From Alteripontixanthobacter maritimus (GTDB taxonomy: Bacteria > Pseudomonadota > Alphaproteobacteria > Sphingomonadales > Sphingomonadaceae), in the NCBI RefSeq assembly GCF_003340475.1, contig NZ_QBKA01000002.1:443501-507500 (forward strand): 64,000 bases of DNA. The letters are read 5' to 3'. Positions 5,253 through 17,882 of the stretch are shown here, piece after piece. The first letter of the stretch is position 1, and every line of letters begins with the position of its first letter. The notes under the pieces were generated by a model. The model made no database searches. It worked only from the letters and a program-made list of their open reading frames with translations, and was not told the origin of the DNA. Position numbers and translations under genes: made by a program.

Positions 5253-8200
5253 TTAGAAGTTCGCGGTGAAACCGGCGTAGAAGTAACGGCCGATATTGTC
5301 ATAGATACTCGATCCACCACCCGAGCCGGTCAGCTGCAGAGGCGGCGCCTGGTCGGTCAGGTTATCGACACCGGCATAGAACGAGAAGTCGTCGCTCACC
5401 CGGACGTTACCACGAAGCGAATGGTAGAACCGCTCCTCGTAGAATTCTTCCGCGGTAGCGTCTGGGTTTATGGCTGGTACTACGATCAACTCCCCTGGGG
5501 TACAGGTTGGCGAACCTTCTGTACGGGGGATTACGCCCACTCCTGGGGTGCCACGGCCCTCGACACATGCTGCCGTAAAGGAATTAGTAGTTTCAAACCC
5601 ATTAATAAATTGCTTATCCAAGAAACGTAGTCCGTAGGATAGGGTAAACGGACCTGTTCGATACGATGCATTGAAGTTTACTGCCCACTCGGGATCGCCA
5701 AGTTCACCGCGAACCACGTTTGGTACATTGGGATTTGTACTATCAAGGAAGTTCGTACGCTTCAATACATGAGTAGCGAGAGCGCGGAACGAAATGCGAT
5801 CATCATTATCGAATGTCTTGGAATAGCGAACGTCAAAATCAATACCTTCCGCCTCCAATCGCGCAAAGTTGATCGGGAATGTCGTCAGGGCATTGTCTTG
5901 GTTCAGATCGCCCTCGGGCTCTCTTGGATTGACCTGATCACAAAATCGATTTTGGAGGGACGTTGCGTCGTAGCACAGCGCAAGCACCGCATTTGCCGGC
6001 AACTGCGAAATCACGTTCTCAACGGTGATATCATAGTAGTCAACCGAGGCTGCAAAACCAGGCAAGAACGAAGGTTCAAAAATAGCACCAACAGTATAAC
6101 TGTCCGATATTTCTGCCTTAAGCGCCTCATCACCTCGCTGCCGAAAGCCAGTATTGGATGTAATGCCGTCCGCATCGTAGCCTTCCGGCACGCCATCCGC
6201 CCGACAATTGATAAGCCTACTGGCTGGTCCCAAGTTAATTGTTTCGTCATCGCACGGATCGTTTAGAAAGCCAAAGTTTTGTGTCAATGGCGCGAACAAA
6301 TCAGAAAGAGTAGGCGACCGAACGGCGCGGGAGTAATTAGCACGGAATCTCAGGTCTGGGATGGGCGAATAAACCAAATTGCCGTTATAGGAATAAACCG
6401 TACCGGTTTGCCCACCCCCGGAATTATAATCAGACACACGCCCGGCAGCTGAAACTGTAAGCTCGTCCGCAAAAGGTAAATTGGCAAGCAACGGGAACTC
6501 GATTTCGCCGAAAGCCTCTACAATTTCAAGATCCGGGGGGGAGAAGGTACCAAATGCATTGAAAAAGGTGTTGCCGGTCGCCGACAGATCGTCAGGTCGT
6601 GAGGAAGCCGTTTCCTTCCGGTATTCACCCCCGAGAACGGCGCGAATAGGACCACCCGGAAGTTCGAAGAAACCGGACGAGTCCGTGTTAACGAAGCCCA
6701 GCAAATTGTACTGTTGAGCCTTGTCGTCAAGGGTTGCGTCAGTATTGATGTAATCAAGGGCAGCTGCGCTTGGCGCACCCACACCAAACAGATTAAGGGG
6801 CGCACAAGCAGGATCGTCGTTGGTGGCATCGGCGTCAGCATTGATGCGACAGACAATATTACCTGTTGCCGGATCGCGAACAGCATCCACAGCATTTTGA
6901 AGGTTAGCAAAGACCAAGTTATTGGTAGCTGCCAAGCTGCTGGTAAATCGACCGTAATTAAAAGAGATATCGTAACGGGTGTTCGAACTGATATCGCCTT
7001 CGACCCCAACCACAATACGATAGGTTTCACGCTTCAGAACGTCGGTTCGGGCACCAAAATCAATATTGTTTCGATTAATAGCGAAGCCTGTGGCCGCCCC
7101 TGAGTTTGGTGGGAAGCCAAAGCCGACCAGAAGTTCGTCTTGAATGGCTTCTGCGGTGGCGCGAGCCGCAGGCGTAAGGAACGGATTATCGAAACTAATG
7201 AATGTAGGGGTCGCTGGTTCGTCGAAACATTCATTACGGCCAAAAAGACCCACGGCACCGCCGAGATTGCCGCAAATCCCGTTCAGGAACGATGGTGTGC
7301 CGGCACCACGCGCTTCGATGCGCGCATATTTGGCTTCAACATACGGACGGACTGCGTCTGAAATATCGAACCGACCCAAAAGGTTGATATTGTAGCGTTC
7401 GATATCGGGAATCAGCGTACCGATCGTGCCGAAGTCCGAACCCGTTCCACCCTGCACATTGTTCGTGCCGGGGAAATTCAGATTATCTTCCCGGACCAAG
7501 TCACCGGTTGGCGTAAAACGAAACTGAACATCGTTACCGTCAGCATCACAAGCTAGCGGTTGCACTGCAGCACCAAAAATACAGAACGGCCTTAGCGTAC
7601 CGCCATCCGAGATGAAGTCGAGACGCAGGCCGTCGCGAAGTTCGAAATCGGGGATACCATCCGAATTCGTGATGCCCTCATCACTCAGGTCATCGATCTG
7701 AACAAAACCTTCAAACCCGATAAACGCACCAGAAATTTCTGGACGCTGTACATTGAGAACACGGTTAATTTTGCTGTATTCAGCAACGGCAGCGATGTTG
7801 CCGCGACCGTCGGCAAAGTTCTTACCAGCTGCGATGGCGGCCGTGTAACGACCATTGTCGCCGCGTTCGGAAATGCCCGACTGTGCGGAGATTTCCAGAC
7901 CTTCGAAATCGCGCTTGGTAATGAAGTTCACGACCCCGGCGATGGCATCCGAACCGTACACGGCGGACGAACCACCGGTAACCACGTCGGTGCGTTCCAG
8001 CAGTTCGAACGGGATGGTGTTGATGTCGACCCGGAAGTCGCCAGCGCTACCCGTAACATGTCGGCGGTTGTTTACGAGAACAAGCGTACGACTGGTACCC
8101 AGGCCGCGAAGATCGAGGAAGTTCACACCGGTCGTGCCGATGAAACGCTGCGAGTTCGATGTCGAGAAGGTAGAGCGAAGCGACGGAAGGTCATTCAACG

Positions 8201-8513
8201 CGTCACCAAGAGACAGCGCACCGTCGTCGAGCAGTTCTTCCGCGGCAACCGAAGTCACCGGAACAGGCGAATCAAGGTTTGGGCGCTGGATGCGCGAGCC
8301 GGAAACCACAATCAGACCGCTAGGTTCGGTTTCACCGCCAGGAGTAACCGTCGTAGGATCGGATTCGTCAACACCGACCTGCTGGTCCTCGTCTTCATCC
8401 TCATCAGGATCGACGTCCTGTGCGTATGCCGGTGTAGCGAGCGCGGCGAGCGAAAGTGCGACGATTCCGGCGCTGGCGCTGAAACGCCCCTTCTGGTTGA
8501 AAATCTTTCTCAT
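5253..8513 (-). CDS. TonB-dependent outer membrane receptor
   Basis: A 1086-residue TonB-dependent receptor that should import an unidentified substrate across the outer membrane using TonB-ExbBD energy. A signal peptide ending TPAYAQD is followed by a very acidic linker (DEDEDED), a TonB-box-like stretch (LIVVSGSRIQ), a plug domain (LDLRGLGTSRTLVLVNNRR, AVYGSDAIAGVVNF), and a long beta-barrel ending in aromatic Phe (GRYFYAGFTANF). The ATG at 8513 is chosen because a signal peptide begins there; an in-frame start 36 codons upstream would bury it. Base composition is uneven: both ends match neighbouring genes, while the barrel region around 5,560-7,100 is clearly AT-richer. No transporter or enzyme gene adjoins it to hint at the substrate. 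Confidence 0.93.
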   Translation of the reverse strand: MRKIFNQKGRFSASAGIVALSLAALATPAYAQDVDPDEDEDEDQQVGVDESDPTTVTPGGETEPSGLIVVSGSRIQRPNLDSPVPVTSVAAEELLDDGALSLGDALNDLPSLRSTFSTSNSQRFIGTTGVNFLDLRGLGTSRTLVLVNNRRHVTGSAGDFRVDINTIPFELLERTDVVTGGSSAVYGSDAIAGVVNFITKRDFEGLEISAQSGISERGDNGRYTAAIAAGKNFADGRGNIAAVAEYSKINRVLNVQRPEISGAFIGFEGFVQIDDLSDEGITNSDGIPDFELRDGLRLDFISDGGTLRPFCIFGAAVQPLACDADGNDVQFRFTPTGDLVREDNLNFPGTNNVQGGTGSDFGTIGTLIPDIERYNINLLGRFDISDAVRPYVEAKYARIEARGAGTPSFLNGICGNLGGAVGLFGRNECFDEPATPTFISFDNPFLTPAARATAEAIQDELLVGFGFPPNSGAATGFAINRNNIDFGARTDVLKRETYRIVVGVEGDISSNTRYDISFNYGRFTSSLAATNNLVFANLQNAVDAVRDPATGNIVCRINADADATNDDPACAPLNLFGVGAPSAAALDYINTDATLDDKAQQYNLLGFVNTDSSGFFELPGGPIRAVLGGEYRKETASSRPDDLSATGNTFFNAFGTFSPPDLEIVEAFGEIEFPLLANLPFADELTVSAAGRVSDYNSGGGQTGTVYSYNGNLVYSPIPDLRFRANYSRAVRSPTLSDLFAPLTQNFGFLNDPCDDETINLGPASRLINCRADGVPEGYDADGITSNTGFRQRGDEALKAEISDSYTVGAIFEPSFLPGFAASVDYYDITVENVISQLPANAVLALCYDATSLQNRFCDQVNPREPEGDLNQDNALTTFPINFARLEAEGIDFDVRYSKTFDNDDRISFRALATHVLKRTNFLDSTNPNVPNVVRGELGDPEWAVNFNASYRTGPFTLSYGLRFLDKQFINGFETTNSFTAACVEGRGTPGVGVIPRTEGSPTCTPGELIVVPAINPDATAEEFYEERFYHSLRGNVRVSDDFSFYAGVDNLTDQAPPLQLTGSGGGSSIYDNIGRYFYAGFTANF

Positions 8514-8812
8514 GATAATTCCAGTCCCCTCGGAATGCCGGATCAATCCGGCGTAATCGAAATGCAATAATCTGCGTGTATCTAGTACAATCGCGACGAA
8601 AGGTATCGTCTGCTGCCCCACCCCACGCAGTGCTGGAAAAGCGATGCGTTAACCTACCGGGAGTCGCAAACGGATTTCGCCTGACGTCACCAGTTTGCGT
8701 CCGCATGTTGCCCTTTCGCAACAGATGGACGACAGGAAGGGTCAAGCCAAAGGTAAACTAGCACGCAAAAGGTGCGGCCCCACCCACTGTCGTTTTTATT
8801 GGGGCAAGTTGA

Positions 8813-9370
8813 TTACTCGATGCGGCGACCCTTTACGCCAATCTGACCGTTTACGCGGATAAAGTACGACCCGAGCGAGGCTTTCTTGAAAACCACCGTA
8901 TCACCGGGCTTCGGACCGCGCAGGCGGCTGGGCGGGTTGGATATCTGCCAAACGGCATTTTCGGCAGTACGGAACACAATCGGCCCACGGCGCGAGGCGT
9001 TAACCGCGGTCACCGTGGTTTCCAGCATGGTTGTATCGTCGTCTTTATCGTCGCCATCGTTCCCGAACAGGGCGATTTTTGGCAGCGACAGGCCGAACAG
9101 GCTGCGCCGTGTTTCCTTCAGATCGTCCGCTTCGACGATCCGTAGGTCGCCAGCTGCTTCCGCCTGCATCATCACGCCCACCGCTGCGTCGTAACAGGCC
9201 AGCCGCTGATCCGGCTCGGCAATGGCGCGACATTCCTGCACCCGGTCAAAGGAGCCGGGTGCGATTGCGCCCGGATCTGTTTCTGATGATGTCGATTGTG
9301 CTTGTAAACCTGTCGCGGCGAGGCAGGCCGCGACGGTGGCGGCAGCGATCAAGGTGGTGCGCTTCGGCAT
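8813..9370 (-). CDS. Secreted protein of unknown function with Cys pair
   Basis: A 185-residue protein not assigned to a family. Residues 1-24 form a signal peptide ending in GLQAQ, so it should be periplasmic. The mature part carries a short motif with two cysteines (VQECRAIAEPDQRLACYDAAV, about 44-64) that recurs in many small exported proteobacterial proteins and could form a disulfide. An acidic stretch (GNDGDDKDDD) leads into a C-terminal beta-rich region. The start has AAGAAGGA upstream. It lies in the roughly 1.2-kb space between two divergent TonB-receptor genes and points the same way as the first, separated by about 300 bases. A shared role is possible but unproven. Confidence 0.75.
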   Translation of the reverse strand: MPKRTTLIAAATVAACLAATGLQAQSTSSETDPGAIAPGSFDRVQECRAIAEPDQRLACYDAAVGVMMQAEAAGDLRIVEADDLKETRRSLFGLSLPKIALFGNDGDDKDDDTTMLETTVTAVNASRRGPIVFRTAENAVWQISNPPSRLRGPKPGDTVVFKKASLGSYFIRVNGQIGVKGRRIE

Positions 9371-13176: not shown

Positions 13177-14094
13177 TCAACTGTCGCTACGCTCCAGCCG
13201 ATAAAAGGTCGCAAAGGCCGCCGGATAAAGACCATCGGCCAGCTCATCACCCCCCACCAAGTTCAGACCGGCAATGCGCCAGCCATCCGCCAAACCCGCA
13301 TGATCGTCCGCCCGTGCGCAAGCCGATACGAGCGATCCGATACGGCCAAGCTCGTTGCGCGCCTTGTCCTCCAGCGTATTAAGCAAGCGCGCAACGTTGC
13401 CGGGATGATCGCGTAGTCCCAACCCCAGCGTCTGGCGGACTGCCTCGGCCAGTTCCCAAGCCGCCGAACGATCTCCAAACAAACGCGCTCCCTCAGCAGG
13501 TGCCGCTTGGACGGCATCAGGCACAGCGTGCAGCCCCATAGCGCGTGCCTTCAAGCTGCGCCGCGCAATCTCTAGCAAATTGCGTTCGTCCAGAACCCAG
13601 GCGAGGCCACTTGCCCGCTCGCGGTTATGGGCAAGGATCGGTCCGTCGCCGCGATGCAGCATCAGTCCGATGATTGCGCCGGGTCTGGTTACCCGCGCAA
13701 TTTCCGAGGAGACCTTCGCGGTATCGCCATATTCAAAACCGAACTGGCTAGTCACGACATCGAAATGCGCGTCGGCATAGGGCAACTGCTCCATCGCAAT
13801 TCCGCCGCGCGATTTGGTTCCACGCGGGGCTTTGGGTAGCACCGGCGCGCGGTCGATGCCCAACAGCTTGGCTTTCGGGCGGACGGCCTGGAAGTGAGCC
13901 ATCACCCGCCCGTCTCCTGTCGCCAGATCAAGCGCAGTAAACTTAGGCGGCAGCTCTTTGGCGAATGCAGTCCAGCATTCCCGCTGCGCAGCATCGATCG
14001 AGCGATAGCCGTCAGGCAGACAGCCGCCGGACTCCCTGGCGGCATCGTCGGCCCAGAAATCGTTCCACGAAGCGGCGTCCTGCGGGGTAGTCAT
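13177..14094 (-). CDS. Class I SAM-dependent methyltransferase, third gene of oxygenase operon
   Basis: A 305-residue class I methyltransferase. The glycine-rich motif I (LDLATGDGRV, about 54-63) and an acidic motif II residue (LLGIDRAP) define the SAM-binding Rossmann fold, followed by motif IV (HFDVVTSQFGFEY). The C-terminal half is longer than in minimal methyltransferases and may recognise the acceptor, which cannot be named. The ATG at 14094 lies seven bases after the stop of the TPR/oxygenase gene, so co-translation is likely. An 11-base direct repeat (ATCATCGGGCG on plus) spans this junction. It resembles ubiquinone/menaquinone-type methyltransferases only at fold level. Confidence 0.85.
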   Translation of the reverse strand: MTTPQDAASWNDFWADDAARESGGCLPDGYRSIDAAQRECWTAFAKELPPKFTALDLATGDGRVMAHFQAVRPKAKLLGIDRAPVLPKAPRGTKSRGGIAMEQLPYADAHFDVVTSQFGFEYGDTAKVSSEIARVTRPGAIIGLMLHRGDGPILAHNRERASGLAWVLDERNLLEIARRSLKARAMGLHAVPDAVQAAPAEGARLFGDRSAAWELAEAVRQTLGLGLRDHPGNVARLLNTLEDKARNELGRIGSLVSACARADDHAGLADGWRIAGLNLVGGDELADGLYPAAFATFYRLERSDS

Positions 14095-14101
14095 CGGGCG
14101 A

Positions 14102-15808
14102 TCATCGGGCGGAAGCCCCTCTTACATCGAATGCGGTTGTCAGGCGGGTCCCGGCGTCGAATGGGCCGGTACTGTGGTAGAGCGTGCTGGGAAACAACGC
14201 CAGATAGCCTGCGCGCGGACGGATGACGCGCAACGGTTCAAGCTCCATCCGCAAATCAGGCGGCGCGCGGCCCAGTTCCAAAGCGCCCTGCAATTCACTA
14301 TCGCTCGCCGCACCTGCTTGCTGTTGTATGGCGGGCGGCAGTTCGCAGTAGAGTGCGGAGGAGAGCAAACCCTCGGGGTGAATGTGTGCAGTATGATAAT
14401 CGCCACCGCCCGTCAGGCGGATGGACCAAGAACCGGCGATGCTCCATGGCAGGTTTCGTTGGCTCAGCAGTGGATGGGTATCATCCCGGGGCGGCAGATT
14501 GGTGCGATAGGTTTCCAGGGTCGCCATCAGCGCATCATGCAGGGCGCGCAATTCAGGCTCCGTCCGGTCGAACAGGATGCCACGCGTCTGGGTTCCCCCA
14601 CGCAGCGACTGGCCAAGCGGGAAGCAGGATACGTCATGGAGCTGGTGGAGTACCGGGATGGCGCGGTGCACCACATCGGCATCGCCTTCCAGCGGCAGAA
14701 GTTGCACCAACCCGTCCTGCCCGTGCAACCATTGCGCGCGTTCGTCATCCAGCATCCGCCAGCACAGATCGCGCGCCGCCCACGCGCCCACCATGCCGGG
14801 CTTCATCGCGATTGCGCTGGCTAGCAATACCTCAGCCTCGATAAACTCACCGCGCCGCATCAGGTGGCGCGCTTTGGCGAAGACGGCAGCGACGGATTCA
14901 TCGTCGAGCGCAGCGAACGCCGCATCGGCCTCGTCCATTCGTCCCGCCGCGCTGGCCTGTGCCGACTTGGCGAGCAACAAGGCGGGCGCATCGGGATGTT
15001 TTGCGAGGCCTGCTTTCGCGGCCTCAAGCGCTTCCAGATGGCGGTCTGCACGGTCGAGATGGGCGATCCATTCCACCCATATATCCACGCCGGCATCAGC
15101 CTGCTGCACCGCGCTCGCAAAAGGCGCGGTAAAGTCCTCCATTCCCGAAGCCAGATTGAGCTGTGTCAAATAGGTCAGGCCGGGCAGCCAATTTGGTCCT
15201 TGCCGGACGATTTCCTCGGCCAATTGCCGGGCTGCCTCGGCATCGCCTACAGCCTCCAGCGCTTGCGCCTTGCCGAGCCAGCCATCGGGATCGGCGGGAT
15301 TACGGGCGAGGGCGGTGTCGAAACGCGCAACCGCATCGCTTTCCGCCCGTTCCAGCGCCACACGGGCCCTGCCAGCCAGCGCCTTTGCATGAGTGGGCTC
15401 GGTCGCCAGCGCCGCATCGAACCAGCGAGATGCCGCATACAATTCGCGCAATTCGTAATGCAAAGCGCCGCGCACCGCGCAATAGCGGGCGGAGCTTTGC
15501 GCCGTCCCTGCAAGGGGTTCCAGCAACCGTAGCCCGGCATCGAACTGGCGCAAATGCGATAACGCGATGGCGAGATTGAGCACGTATTCCAGTGCATCCG
15601 GTTCGGCCTCGACCGCCTGCAGGAACCAGTCCCGCGCCGCGGCAAACTCGCGCGCACGCATTTCCACATTGCCAGCCGTGTTGGCGAGACCAGCATTGTT
15701 GGGATACGCCGCACACAATTGTGCCAACAATCTTCGGGCGGTCGCAACATCGCCCGCTGCTTCCGCATCCAGCGCACGCTGGCGGATAGTCGCAGGCGCG
15801 TCGGCCAT
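14102..15808 (-). CDS. TPR protein with C-terminal Fe(II)/2-oxoglutarate oxygenase domain
   Basis: A 568-residue two-part protein. Residues 1 to about 350 are alpha-helical tetratricopeptide-like repeats (recurrent Ala/Leu/Tyr spacing, DPDGWLGKAQALEAVGD). The C-terminal 200 residues match the putative 2OG-Fe(II) oxygenase family seen fused to TPRs. They carry an HxH-type iron motif (AHIHPEG, His475/His477), a strand (SSALYCELP), a distal ligand (TLYHSTGPF, His545) and the 2-oxoglutarate-binding Arg555 (TRLTTAFDV). The ATG at 15808 overlaps the upstream stop by one base (TGATG), implying translational coupling; a longer in-frame reading to 16210 would overlap the upstream oxygenase. TPRs usually bind proteins, so a protein substrate or partner is plausible, but the reaction is unknown. 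Confidence 0.85.
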   Translation of the reverse strand: MADAPATIRQRALDAEAAGDVATARRLLAQLCAAYPNNAGLANTAGNVEMRAREFAAARDWFLQAVEAEPDALEYVLNLAIALSHLRQFDAGLRLLEPLAGTAQSSARYCAVRGALHYELRELYAASRWFDAALATEPTHAKALAGRARVALERAESDAVARFDTALARNPADPDGWLGKAQALEAVGDAEAARQLAEEIVRQGPNWLPGLTYLTQLNLASGMEDFTAPFASAVQQADAGVDIWVEWIAHLDRADRHLEALEAAKAGLAKHPDAPALLLAKSAQASAAGRMDEADAAFAALDDESVAAVFAKARHLMRRGEFIEAEVLLASAIAMKPGMVGAWAARDLCWRMLDDERAQWLHGQDGLVQLLPLEGDADVVHRAIPVLHQLHDVSCFPLGQSLRGGTQTRGILFDRTEPELRALHDALMATLETYRTNLPPRDDTHPLLSQRNLPWSIAGSWSIRLTGGGDYHTAHIHPEGLLSSALYCELPPAIQQQAGAASDSELQGALELGRAPPDLRMELEPLRVIRPRAGYLALFPSTLYHSTGPFDAGTRLTTAFDVRGASAR

Positions 15809-16575
15809 CAGACGTTGCGGACCCATCCGGTGATGGCATAGCGGCCAAGCGGAGCGAACGGCGGCACGAAGCCAACCGAATGCGCCTGCGGGACGGCGAA
15901 CATATTGAGGCTGTTGAAGCGGGGCCGAAACGCGCATTCGATATTGCCATCCTGGTCGAAGAAATTGAGATAGCCGCCCCAGTCGGGCTTCCAGTCGTCC
16001 ACCGTCAGATTGAGGACATAGGCAACCTTCCACCCTTCCGCCACATGGCTGTCGGTATGCAACCCCAGGAAGTGCTGCGGCGCGTAAAGCGTGGCCTGCC
16101 CGTCGGCCTTGATCAGGTCGTCCATGCCGGTGACTTCGCGCACCAGCCCGAGAAATTTCGGCGTATTCAGATATTCGATCAGCAGATCGTGCGCGCCGCC
16201 CTCGTTCCATTTCTCGAGATAGCCCTGAACCAGCGAATACTGCGCATAGCAGAAGGCATAATCCCCACGCGCAGCCGCTTTGCCGGCAGCCTGTGTCAGC
16301 CGGGCAAGGCGCTGCTGCCCCGCTTGCGTGTTTAACTCCGCGGGCGGGACTTGCGCCGGGCCACCGACTTCGCCGCCTGCATTACCCGAATTCGCTCCAT
16401 CGCCCGGCGCGGTCGCCATGCCCCAGGCGGTGCCGCGCGCCAGTACATCGCGTATCTCGCGCGCGGATTCGTTGGTCAACACGTCCCGGATCTGAATCCG
16501 GCGCCGGCTTGCGAAACGCGCCGCTAGTTCCTCGCGATCGAGGGCAGGGTTCAGTTCGAACAGGGTTTTTGCCAT
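15808..16575 (-). CDS. Fe(II)/2-oxoglutarate oxygenase, prolyl 4-hydroxylase-like
   Basis: A 255-residue cytoplasmic dioxygenase of the prolyl-4-hydroxylase/EGL-9 type. It has the complete facial triad and cosubstrate residues: HTD (His173, Asp175), distal His232 (PQAHSVGF) and Arg245 (GRYAITGW). The double-stranded beta-helix core is about 160-255, with an N-terminal helical part. Family members hydroxylate protein or peptide side chains, using O2 and 2-oxoglutarate and releasing succinate and CO2. The ATG at 16575 gives a clean N-terminus; a start at 16677 would add 34 basic residues not typical of the family. It is the first gene of a three-gene operon with a second oxygenase and a methyltransferase, and is divergent from the thiolase gene 134 bases away. 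Confidence 0.9.
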   Translation of the reverse strand: MAKTLFELNPALDREELAARFASRRRIQIRDVLTNESAREIRDVLARGTAWGMATAPGDGANSGNAGGEVGGPAQVPPAELNTQAGQQRLARLTQAAGKAAARGDYAFCYAQYSLVQGYLEKWNEGGAHDLLIEYLNTPKFLGLVREVTGMDDLIKADGQATLYAPQHFLGLHTDSHVAEGWKVAYVLNLTVDDWKPDWGGYLNFFDQDGNIECAFRPRFNSLNMFAVPQAHSVGFVPPFAPLGRYAITGWVRNV

Positions 16576-16709: not shown

Positions 16710-17882
16710 GTGGCCGAAGCCTATATCGTCGAAGCAGTCAGGACCGCAGGCGGGCGGCGCGGTGGCCGGTTGGCTGGCGTCCACCCGGTCGATCTGGCGG
16801 CCAGATCGCTCGATGCGGTGATGGAGCGCAGCGGGGTCGACCCCCAGGGTATCGACGATGTGATCATGGGCTGCGTCAGCCAGGCGGGCGAACAGGCCAT
16901 GCAGGTTGGGCGCAATGCCGTGCTCGCTAGCAAGCATCTGCTCGAATCGACACCGGCTGTCACTATCGACCGCCAGTGCGGATCGAGCCAGCAGGCCATC
17001 CAGTTTGCCGCGCAGGCCGTGATGAGCGGCACACAGGATGCTGTCATCGCCGCAGGGATCGAGAGCATGAGCCGCGTACCGATGGGTTCCACCGCCACGC
17101 TGCACATGAAGGAAGGGCTGGGCGGCTACAAATCGCCCGGTTTGGAAGAAAAATATCCCGGCATCATGTGGTCGCAATTCATGGGCGCCGAGATGATCGC
17201 GCAGAAGCACGATCTGTCGAAGGACGATCTCGACCGGTTCTCGCTCTCCAGTCATGAAAAAGCCATCGCGGCCACGAAGTCCGGCGCGTTCGACGCTGAA
17301 ATTGTCCCCGTCGCCATCGAAACCCCCGAGGGCGAGGAGATGCACACGGTGGACGAGGGCATCCGGTTCGACGCAACGCTCGATAGCATCGCATCCGTCA
17401 AGAAACTGAGCGAGGAGGGGCGCATTACGGCCGCTAGTGCCAGCCAGATTTGCGACGGGTCGAGCGCGGTCATGGTAGTGTCGGAGCAGTTTCTGAAGGA
17501 CCATAACCTCACACCGATGGCGCGCATTCACAATCTTACCGTGACGGCGGGTGATCCGGTCATCATGCTGGAAGAACCGCTGTTCGCGACCGACAAGGCG
17601 CTGAAACGTGCGGGCATGACAATGGATGAGATCGACCTGTACGAAGTGAACGAGGCCTTTGCGCCAGTGCCGCTGGCATGGCTGAAGCACACCGGTGCCG
17701 ATCCCGATAAGTTGAACGTCAATGGCGGCGCGATTGCGCTGGGCCACCCGCTCGGCGCATCGGGAACCAAGCTGATGGCGACCCTGCTACAAGGCTTGAA
17801 GGCACGCGGCGGAAGATACGGCCTGCAAACTATGTGCGAAGGCGGCGGCGTGGCGAATGTAACGATTGTCGAGGCACTTTAA
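16710..17882 (+). CDS. Acetyl-CoA C-acyltransferase (thiolase)
   Basis: A 390-residue thiolase that cleaves 3-ketoacyl-CoA with CoA (or condenses two acyl-CoAs). The catalytic set is complete: acylated Cys90 (DRQCGSS), His346 (ALGHPLGASG) and general base Cys376 (TMCEGGG). Length is normal. The start is GTG at 16710 with AGGAGAG five bases upstream; no in-frame ATG gives a better N-terminus. With the downstream SDR and the enoyl-CoA hydratase it forms a beta-oxidation-like group, although about 140 bases and a repeat separate the first two. Degradative versus biosynthetic type cannot be settled by eye. Confidence 0.93.
   Translation: MAEAYIVEAVRTAGGRRGGRLAGVHPVDLAARSLDAVMERSGVDPQGIDDVIMGCVSQAGEQAMQVGRNAVLASKHLLESTPAVTIDRQCGSSQQAIQFAAQAVMSGTQDAVIAAGIESMSRVPMGSTATLHMKEGLGGYKSPGLEEKYPGIMWSQFMGAEMIAQKHDLSKDDLDRFSLSSHEKAIAATKSGAFDAEIVPVAIETPEGEEMHTVDEGIRFDATLDSIASVKKLSEEGRITAASASQICDGSSAVMVVSEQFLKDHNLTPMARIHNLTVTAGDPVIMLEEPLFATDKALKRAGMTMDEIDLYEVNEAFAPVPLAWLKHTGADPDKLNVNGGAIALGHPLGASGTKLMATLLQGLKARGGRYGLQTMCEGGGVANVTIVEAL

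Follow-up and report, generated by a model that had tools for sequence, protein, structure and literature searches.

What do two unlike Fe(II)/2OG oxygenases and a methyltransferase do when they are encoded as one tight unit, and does that unit act alone? The window, the whole stretch of 64,000 nucleotides analyzed here, comes from a 2.68-Mb genome and carries three such genes (P1, P2, and P3) on the minus strand. A sequence-only reading had described a one-base overlap between P1 and P2 and a seven-base gap between P2 and P3. Both were verified in the sequence, as were the two neighbors it named: a thiolase gene (16710-17882), divergent from the operon and adjoining its P1 end, and a TonB-dependent receptor gene pointing toward it. 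None of the three proteins received an above-cut-off name from the NCBIfam models. The features discussed below are as follows.

15808..16575, minus strand: P1, prolyl-hydroxylase-type Fe(II)/2OG oxygenase, 255 aa (H173, D175, H232, R245)
14102..15808, minus strand: P2, predicted TPR superhelix (residues 1-362) plus a PF13759 2OG oxygenase domain, 568 aa (H475-x-H477, H545, R555)
13177..14094, minus strand: P3, class I SAM-dependent methyltransferase, 305 aa
9709..12753, plus strand: TonB-dependent receptor, convergent with the operon and the best-conserved associate of P2
9546..9565, plus strand: conserved motif ACTGTAACCGTAATGACACA (TGT-N12-ACA), 20 nt, between INVL and the receptor
8813..9370, minus strand: INVL, small secreted-type protein without a Pfam family, adjoining the receptor in most module loci
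5253..8621, minus strand: second TonB-dependent receptor, 1122 aa, beside INVL in several relatives; its membership in the module is uncertain

The three enzymes

P1 is matched by the Pfam families PF13661 (1.6e-16) and PF13640. It has the HxD...H facial triad and the 2OG-binding Arg, and all four residues are invariant in an alignment of 39 P1 homologues, which bears out the intact iron site first read from the sequence. By profile comparison, the nearest solved structures are OGFOD1 (4nhx, 6.7e-13), Tpa1 (3kt1, 2e-6), PPHD (4iw3, 3.6e-6), and EGLN, whereas the P1 profile had no match to the PKHD-type structure 3dkq at E ≤ 0.01. P1 shares its HxD...H and Arg with OGFOD1/Tpa1 and PPHD but is a single-domain protein, whereas the OGFOD1 and Tpa1 chains span 560 to 650 residues. 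Unlike these relatives, it is also mostly receptor-linked and patchily distributed. Strongly diverged duplicates of P1 lie side by side at five loci (L040, L057, L060, L065, and L069).

P2 had been described as a TPR protein fused to a second 2OG oxygenase. Pfam agrees on both parts: Several TPR families match, and PF13759 (2OG-FeII_Oxy_5) is found at residues 460 to 561 (4e-15; 56.5 bits against a Pfam cut-off of 27). AlphaFold confidently predicts a superhelix of TPR-like helix pairs for residues 1 to 362; model confidence for the oxygenase domain is very low (pLDDT about 30). The active-site motif, however, is H475-x-H477...H545...R555 rather than the canonical HxD/E...H triad of 2OG oxygenases, and these four residues are invariant across 49 aligned P2 homologues. 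The C-terminal domain resembles the PF13759 structures 2rg4 and 3bvc, which share the HxHP with a downstream His and Arg; judged from these sequences, HxH for HxD is a trait of the PF13759 family and not of P2 alone. A three-His metal site involving residues 472 to 480 is possible. What P2 has beyond 2rg4 and 3bvc is its TPR superhelix of roughly 360 residues and its operon context.

AspH and the collagen prolyl hydroxylases are TPR-bearing enzymes whose 2OG oxygenase domain acts on polypeptides. Like P2, they join a helical-repeat domain to a 2OG oxygenase, but the oxygenase domain of P2 belongs to another family. Proteins that fuse TPRs to PF05118, comparable to the AspH type, do occur at loci related to the P2 module (see below).

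The assignment of P3 as a class I methyltransferase stands, with a Methyltransf_11 (PF08241) match above cut-off (1.2e-9) and a glycine-rich/acidic SAM-binding Rossmann motif (D56, G60, G79, and D81) invariant in 30 aligned sequences. Profile and fold comparison found no informative nearest relative; the fold search returned only generic class I methyltransferases (TM about 0.2 to 0.4). Its relatives include many small-molecule methyltransferases, and its structural neighbors, at low similarity, are mostly natural-product methyltransferases. LahSB, a methyltransferase from a lanthipeptide cluster, is among the profile matches.

Conservation of the operon and its tie to a receptor

P1-P2-P3 is a real, tightly coupled operon that has been kept well beyond chance. 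In a sample of 201 Sphingomonadaceae genomes, searched with E-value limits that differed between the three proteins, 58 had P1 homologues, 104 had the P2 oxygenase domain, and 34 had P3. The earlier reading had proposed a gene-neighborhood search, and adjacency is indeed kept: P1 precedes P2 in tandem in 28 of the relatives' loci that we fetched and P2 precedes P3 in 25, mostly with a 4-nt overlap. Every fetched locus with P3 also has P2 within 5 kb. Three related loci are labeled Erythrobacteraceae or Altererythrobacter.

As a three-gene unit, however, the operon is only partly upheld, with coupling conserved but P1 and P3 optional around a core of P2 and the TonB receptor. P1 and P2 occur without P3 at six loci (L004, L043, L057, L059, L060, and L064), and many P2 loci lack P1. 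P2 and P3 occur without P1 at seven (L074, L076, L077, L082, L089, L090, and L092), so an obligatory hydroxylation followed by methylation, as first suggested, is not indicated. There are also some P1 homologues that are not near any module gene (L055, L061, L062, and L068).

The thiolase is a conserved chromosomal neighbor rather than a partner. We rejected it, together with other beta-oxidation-type genes, because the module also occurs at clpA/xseA/purD-type sites that lack them. These housekeeping neighbors (clpA, xseA, purD, and thiolase-SDR-ECH) are themselves syntenic.

The receptor, first noted as a mere neighbor, was correctly placed but proves to be the best-conserved associate of P2. 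In loci selected by P1 or P2 alone, which are kin to one another and therefore not independent, 47 of the 52 P2 copies from Sphingomonadaceae and 9 of the 20 copies from other families have a receptor within 5 kb. The detection queries represent the general type of the window receptor, and other types may have escaped. Given that the source genome has 18 receptors of this type, we estimate that position alone would place one near P2 by chance roughly one time in ten. The linked receptors are mostly of one subfamily: For 58 of the 66 found near P1 or P2, the best match of the 18 in the genome is the window receptor. No NCBIfam receptor model reached its cut-off for the window receptor, and the Fiu model was absent from the hits.

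This association survives rearrangement. The receptor precedes P2 in the same direction at L076, L077, L081, L085, and L088; it is flanked by P1 on one side and P2 on the other at L060 and L065; and other families, as well as bacteria beyond the class, show the link again, with P1, P2, and the receptor together at L110. Among P2 copies from other families, roughly one in two lacks a nearby receptor of the window type. Receptor-free P2 loci include L102 and L104 to L106. Distance matrices for 14 loci, a sample of low power, revealed no significant covariation of receptor distances with P1, P2, or P3 beyond the control genes (thiolase, SDR, ECH, and MarR); the only notable correlation is that between P1 and P3 (r = 0.46, P = 0.008). 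P2 keeps one receptor subfamily beside it, and usually INVL, through rearrangements and across families, whether or not P1 and P3 are present. The link between operon and receptor is well supported, and P1-P2-P3 is one version of a larger receptor-associated module that has P2 as its core.

INVL is divergent from the receptor, here and in most module loci, and the second receptor gene follows it. The one match obtained for INVL, a weak one, is to VasI and covers just the first 30 positions. The TGT-N12-ACA motif lies about 165 nt ahead of the receptor start codon, at a near-constant distance in relatives; by our count, 14 of the 30 upstream regions contain it exactly. The window copy is the only exact match in the genome; a copy with two mismatches lies near another receptor gene (G000:C2:340588). 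The motif is probably a regulatory site, and its spacing resembles that of the PpsR/CrtJ consensus. A Fur-box search ahead of the receptor and P1 gave at best 12 of 19 positions, scored against one Fur consensus.

Exchangeable enzymes at related loci

Related receptor loci have other partners: a TPR protein with an Asp/Asn beta-hydroxylase domain (PF05118), a TPR protein with a sulfotransferase domain (PF13469), and a protein of about 340 aa without a Pfam family. At L126, P1, the TPR-hydroxylase, INVL, the receptor, and the TPR-sulfotransferase occur together without P2; at L095 and L103, both from other families, P2 is found with both TPR enzymes and the receptor. Such TPR-fused hydroxylases and sulfotransferases recur beside the same receptor type at L080, L084, L095, L103, L113, L126, and L131. 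The protein of about 340 aa (cluster c20; for example, L039 1313-2368) often lies beside P1 or INVL, and its P-loop-like stretch FHTAFCRSTLLAR looks sulfotransferase-like by eye.

What the enzymes may act on

We tentatively favor, as a possibility somewhat short of even, that the products of the operon are cytosolic tailoring enzymes serving the TonB-dependent receptor system specifically, with a polypeptide client that would most plausibly be an exported partner. The TPR superhelix of P2 would capture this polypeptide while it is still in the cytosol, the P2 oxygenase domain and P1 would hydroxylate its side chains, and P3, in lineages that have it, would add a methyl group. The client (the receptor itself or INVL) would be modified before secretion, and a modified receptor could then work properly or escape something that targets it.

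A protein or peptide substrate had been proposed from the sequence, and both the likeness of P1 to protein prolyl hydroxylases and the long TPR superhelix of P2 fit it. Two further points favor a polypeptide: TPR domains are also present in the alternative enzymes, and neither importer nor biosynthetic genes could be recognized as conserved in the module at the fetched loci. The preferred reading as a whole is also supported by the conservation of the operon and by a receptor link that persists through changes of order, strand, and family and mostly involves one subfamily. The exchange for a TPR-Asp/Asn hydroxylase or a TPR-sulfotransferase elsewhere fits variable surface chemistry. Against this reading stand the receptor distances, which do not covary beyond controls (only 14 loci); the extra-family P2 copies, about half of which have no such receptor; the noncanonical iron site of P2, whose oxygenase activity is presumed; and the generic relatives of P3, many of them small-molecule methyltransferases.

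The closest precedent is CciT-CciO of Caulobacter. Experimentally, the receptor CciT does not function without CciO, a dioxygenase of the cytosol, and ligand synthesis or ligand oxidation has been proposed as a model for CciO/PiuC (PMC12004947). The main rival, nearly as likely as our preferred reading, is likewise phrased in terms of the ligand: The enzymes may make, modify, or degrade what the receptor imports, such as a metallophore, a peptide, or another nutrient. P2 and P1 copies without a receptor could then serve other small molecules, and the natural-product methyltransferases that neighbor P3, if distantly, would be in keeping. However, the module has no recognized conserved inner-membrane importer, biosynthetic, or degradative genes, no Fur-like site was found (by the one consensus scored), P1 resembles protein prolyl hydroxylases more closely than enzymes of the PiuC/YbiX types, and the TPR fusions favor polypeptides.

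CciT-CciO, like PiuA-PiuC and Fiu-YbiX, consists of a receptor gene conserved beside a gene for a cytosolic Fe(II)/2OG dioxygenase, and this adjacency is found here in relatives. The differences are considerable. The CciT-CciO dioxygenase is of the PiuC/YbiX (PKHD) type, to which neither P1 nor P2 can be assigned (P2 matched 3dkq only at 0.17 in profile comparison), and the CciT receptor belongs to the Fiu/PiuA siderophore family, where NCBIfam does not place the window receptor. Here there are two oxygenases, a methyltransferase, and a TPR fusion, the receptor is a convergent gene outside the operon, and no site upstream of the receptor or P1 scores above 12 of 19 against the one Fur consensus used. 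The earlier reading knew of no described system with exactly this composition, and our literature search, in a collection with few subscription journals, likewise found no paper describing it.

It is improbable that the receptor has no part in the system at all, with a shared ancestral site holding unrelated genes and P1 and P2 acting on a housekeeping protein (a ribosomal protein or EF-Tu) in the manner of OGFOD1 and PPHD. P1 does resemble those enzymes and has homologues away from module genes, and the housekeeping neighbors are likewise syntenic; but the linkage persists where the site, the gene order, or the strand differs and reappears both in other families and beyond the class, and the presence of P1 in only 58 of 201 genomes is unlike what a housekeeping modifier would show. 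Least probable is a RiPP-type pathway, with the three enzymes processing a small genetically encoded peptide for export and later reuptake via the receptor. An oxygenase, a methyltransferase, and a TPR protein would be compatible with this, and LahSB is among the P3 matches; yet a search of the module intergenic stretches for precursors turned up no conserved small ORF, and the loci do not consistently carry an exporter or a peptidase. Some small ORFs do recur, but we rejected them as precursors: They start in the stretches of flanking coding sequence that the search took in and are therefore probably its shadows.

The work on CciT-CciO established the dependence of an outer-membrane receptor on a cytosolic dioxygenase but did not explain it. 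The P2 module is a second, richer case of a receptor paired with enzymes, built from other protein families. It associates one receptor subfamily with a range of interchangeable chemistries: oxygenases of two kinds and a methyltransferase here, and an Asp/Asn hydroxylase and a sulfotransferase elsewhere. Whether modification falls on the receptor, on its ligand, or on a third molecule becomes a testable question in culturable relatives. The boldest generalization, which we consider doubtful, is that, in a widespread bacterial system, cytosolic enzymes guided by TPRs add hydroxyl, methyl, or sulfate groups to a TonB receptor or its secreted partner before export. If true, outer-membrane receptors would carry side-chain chemistry that is new to description.
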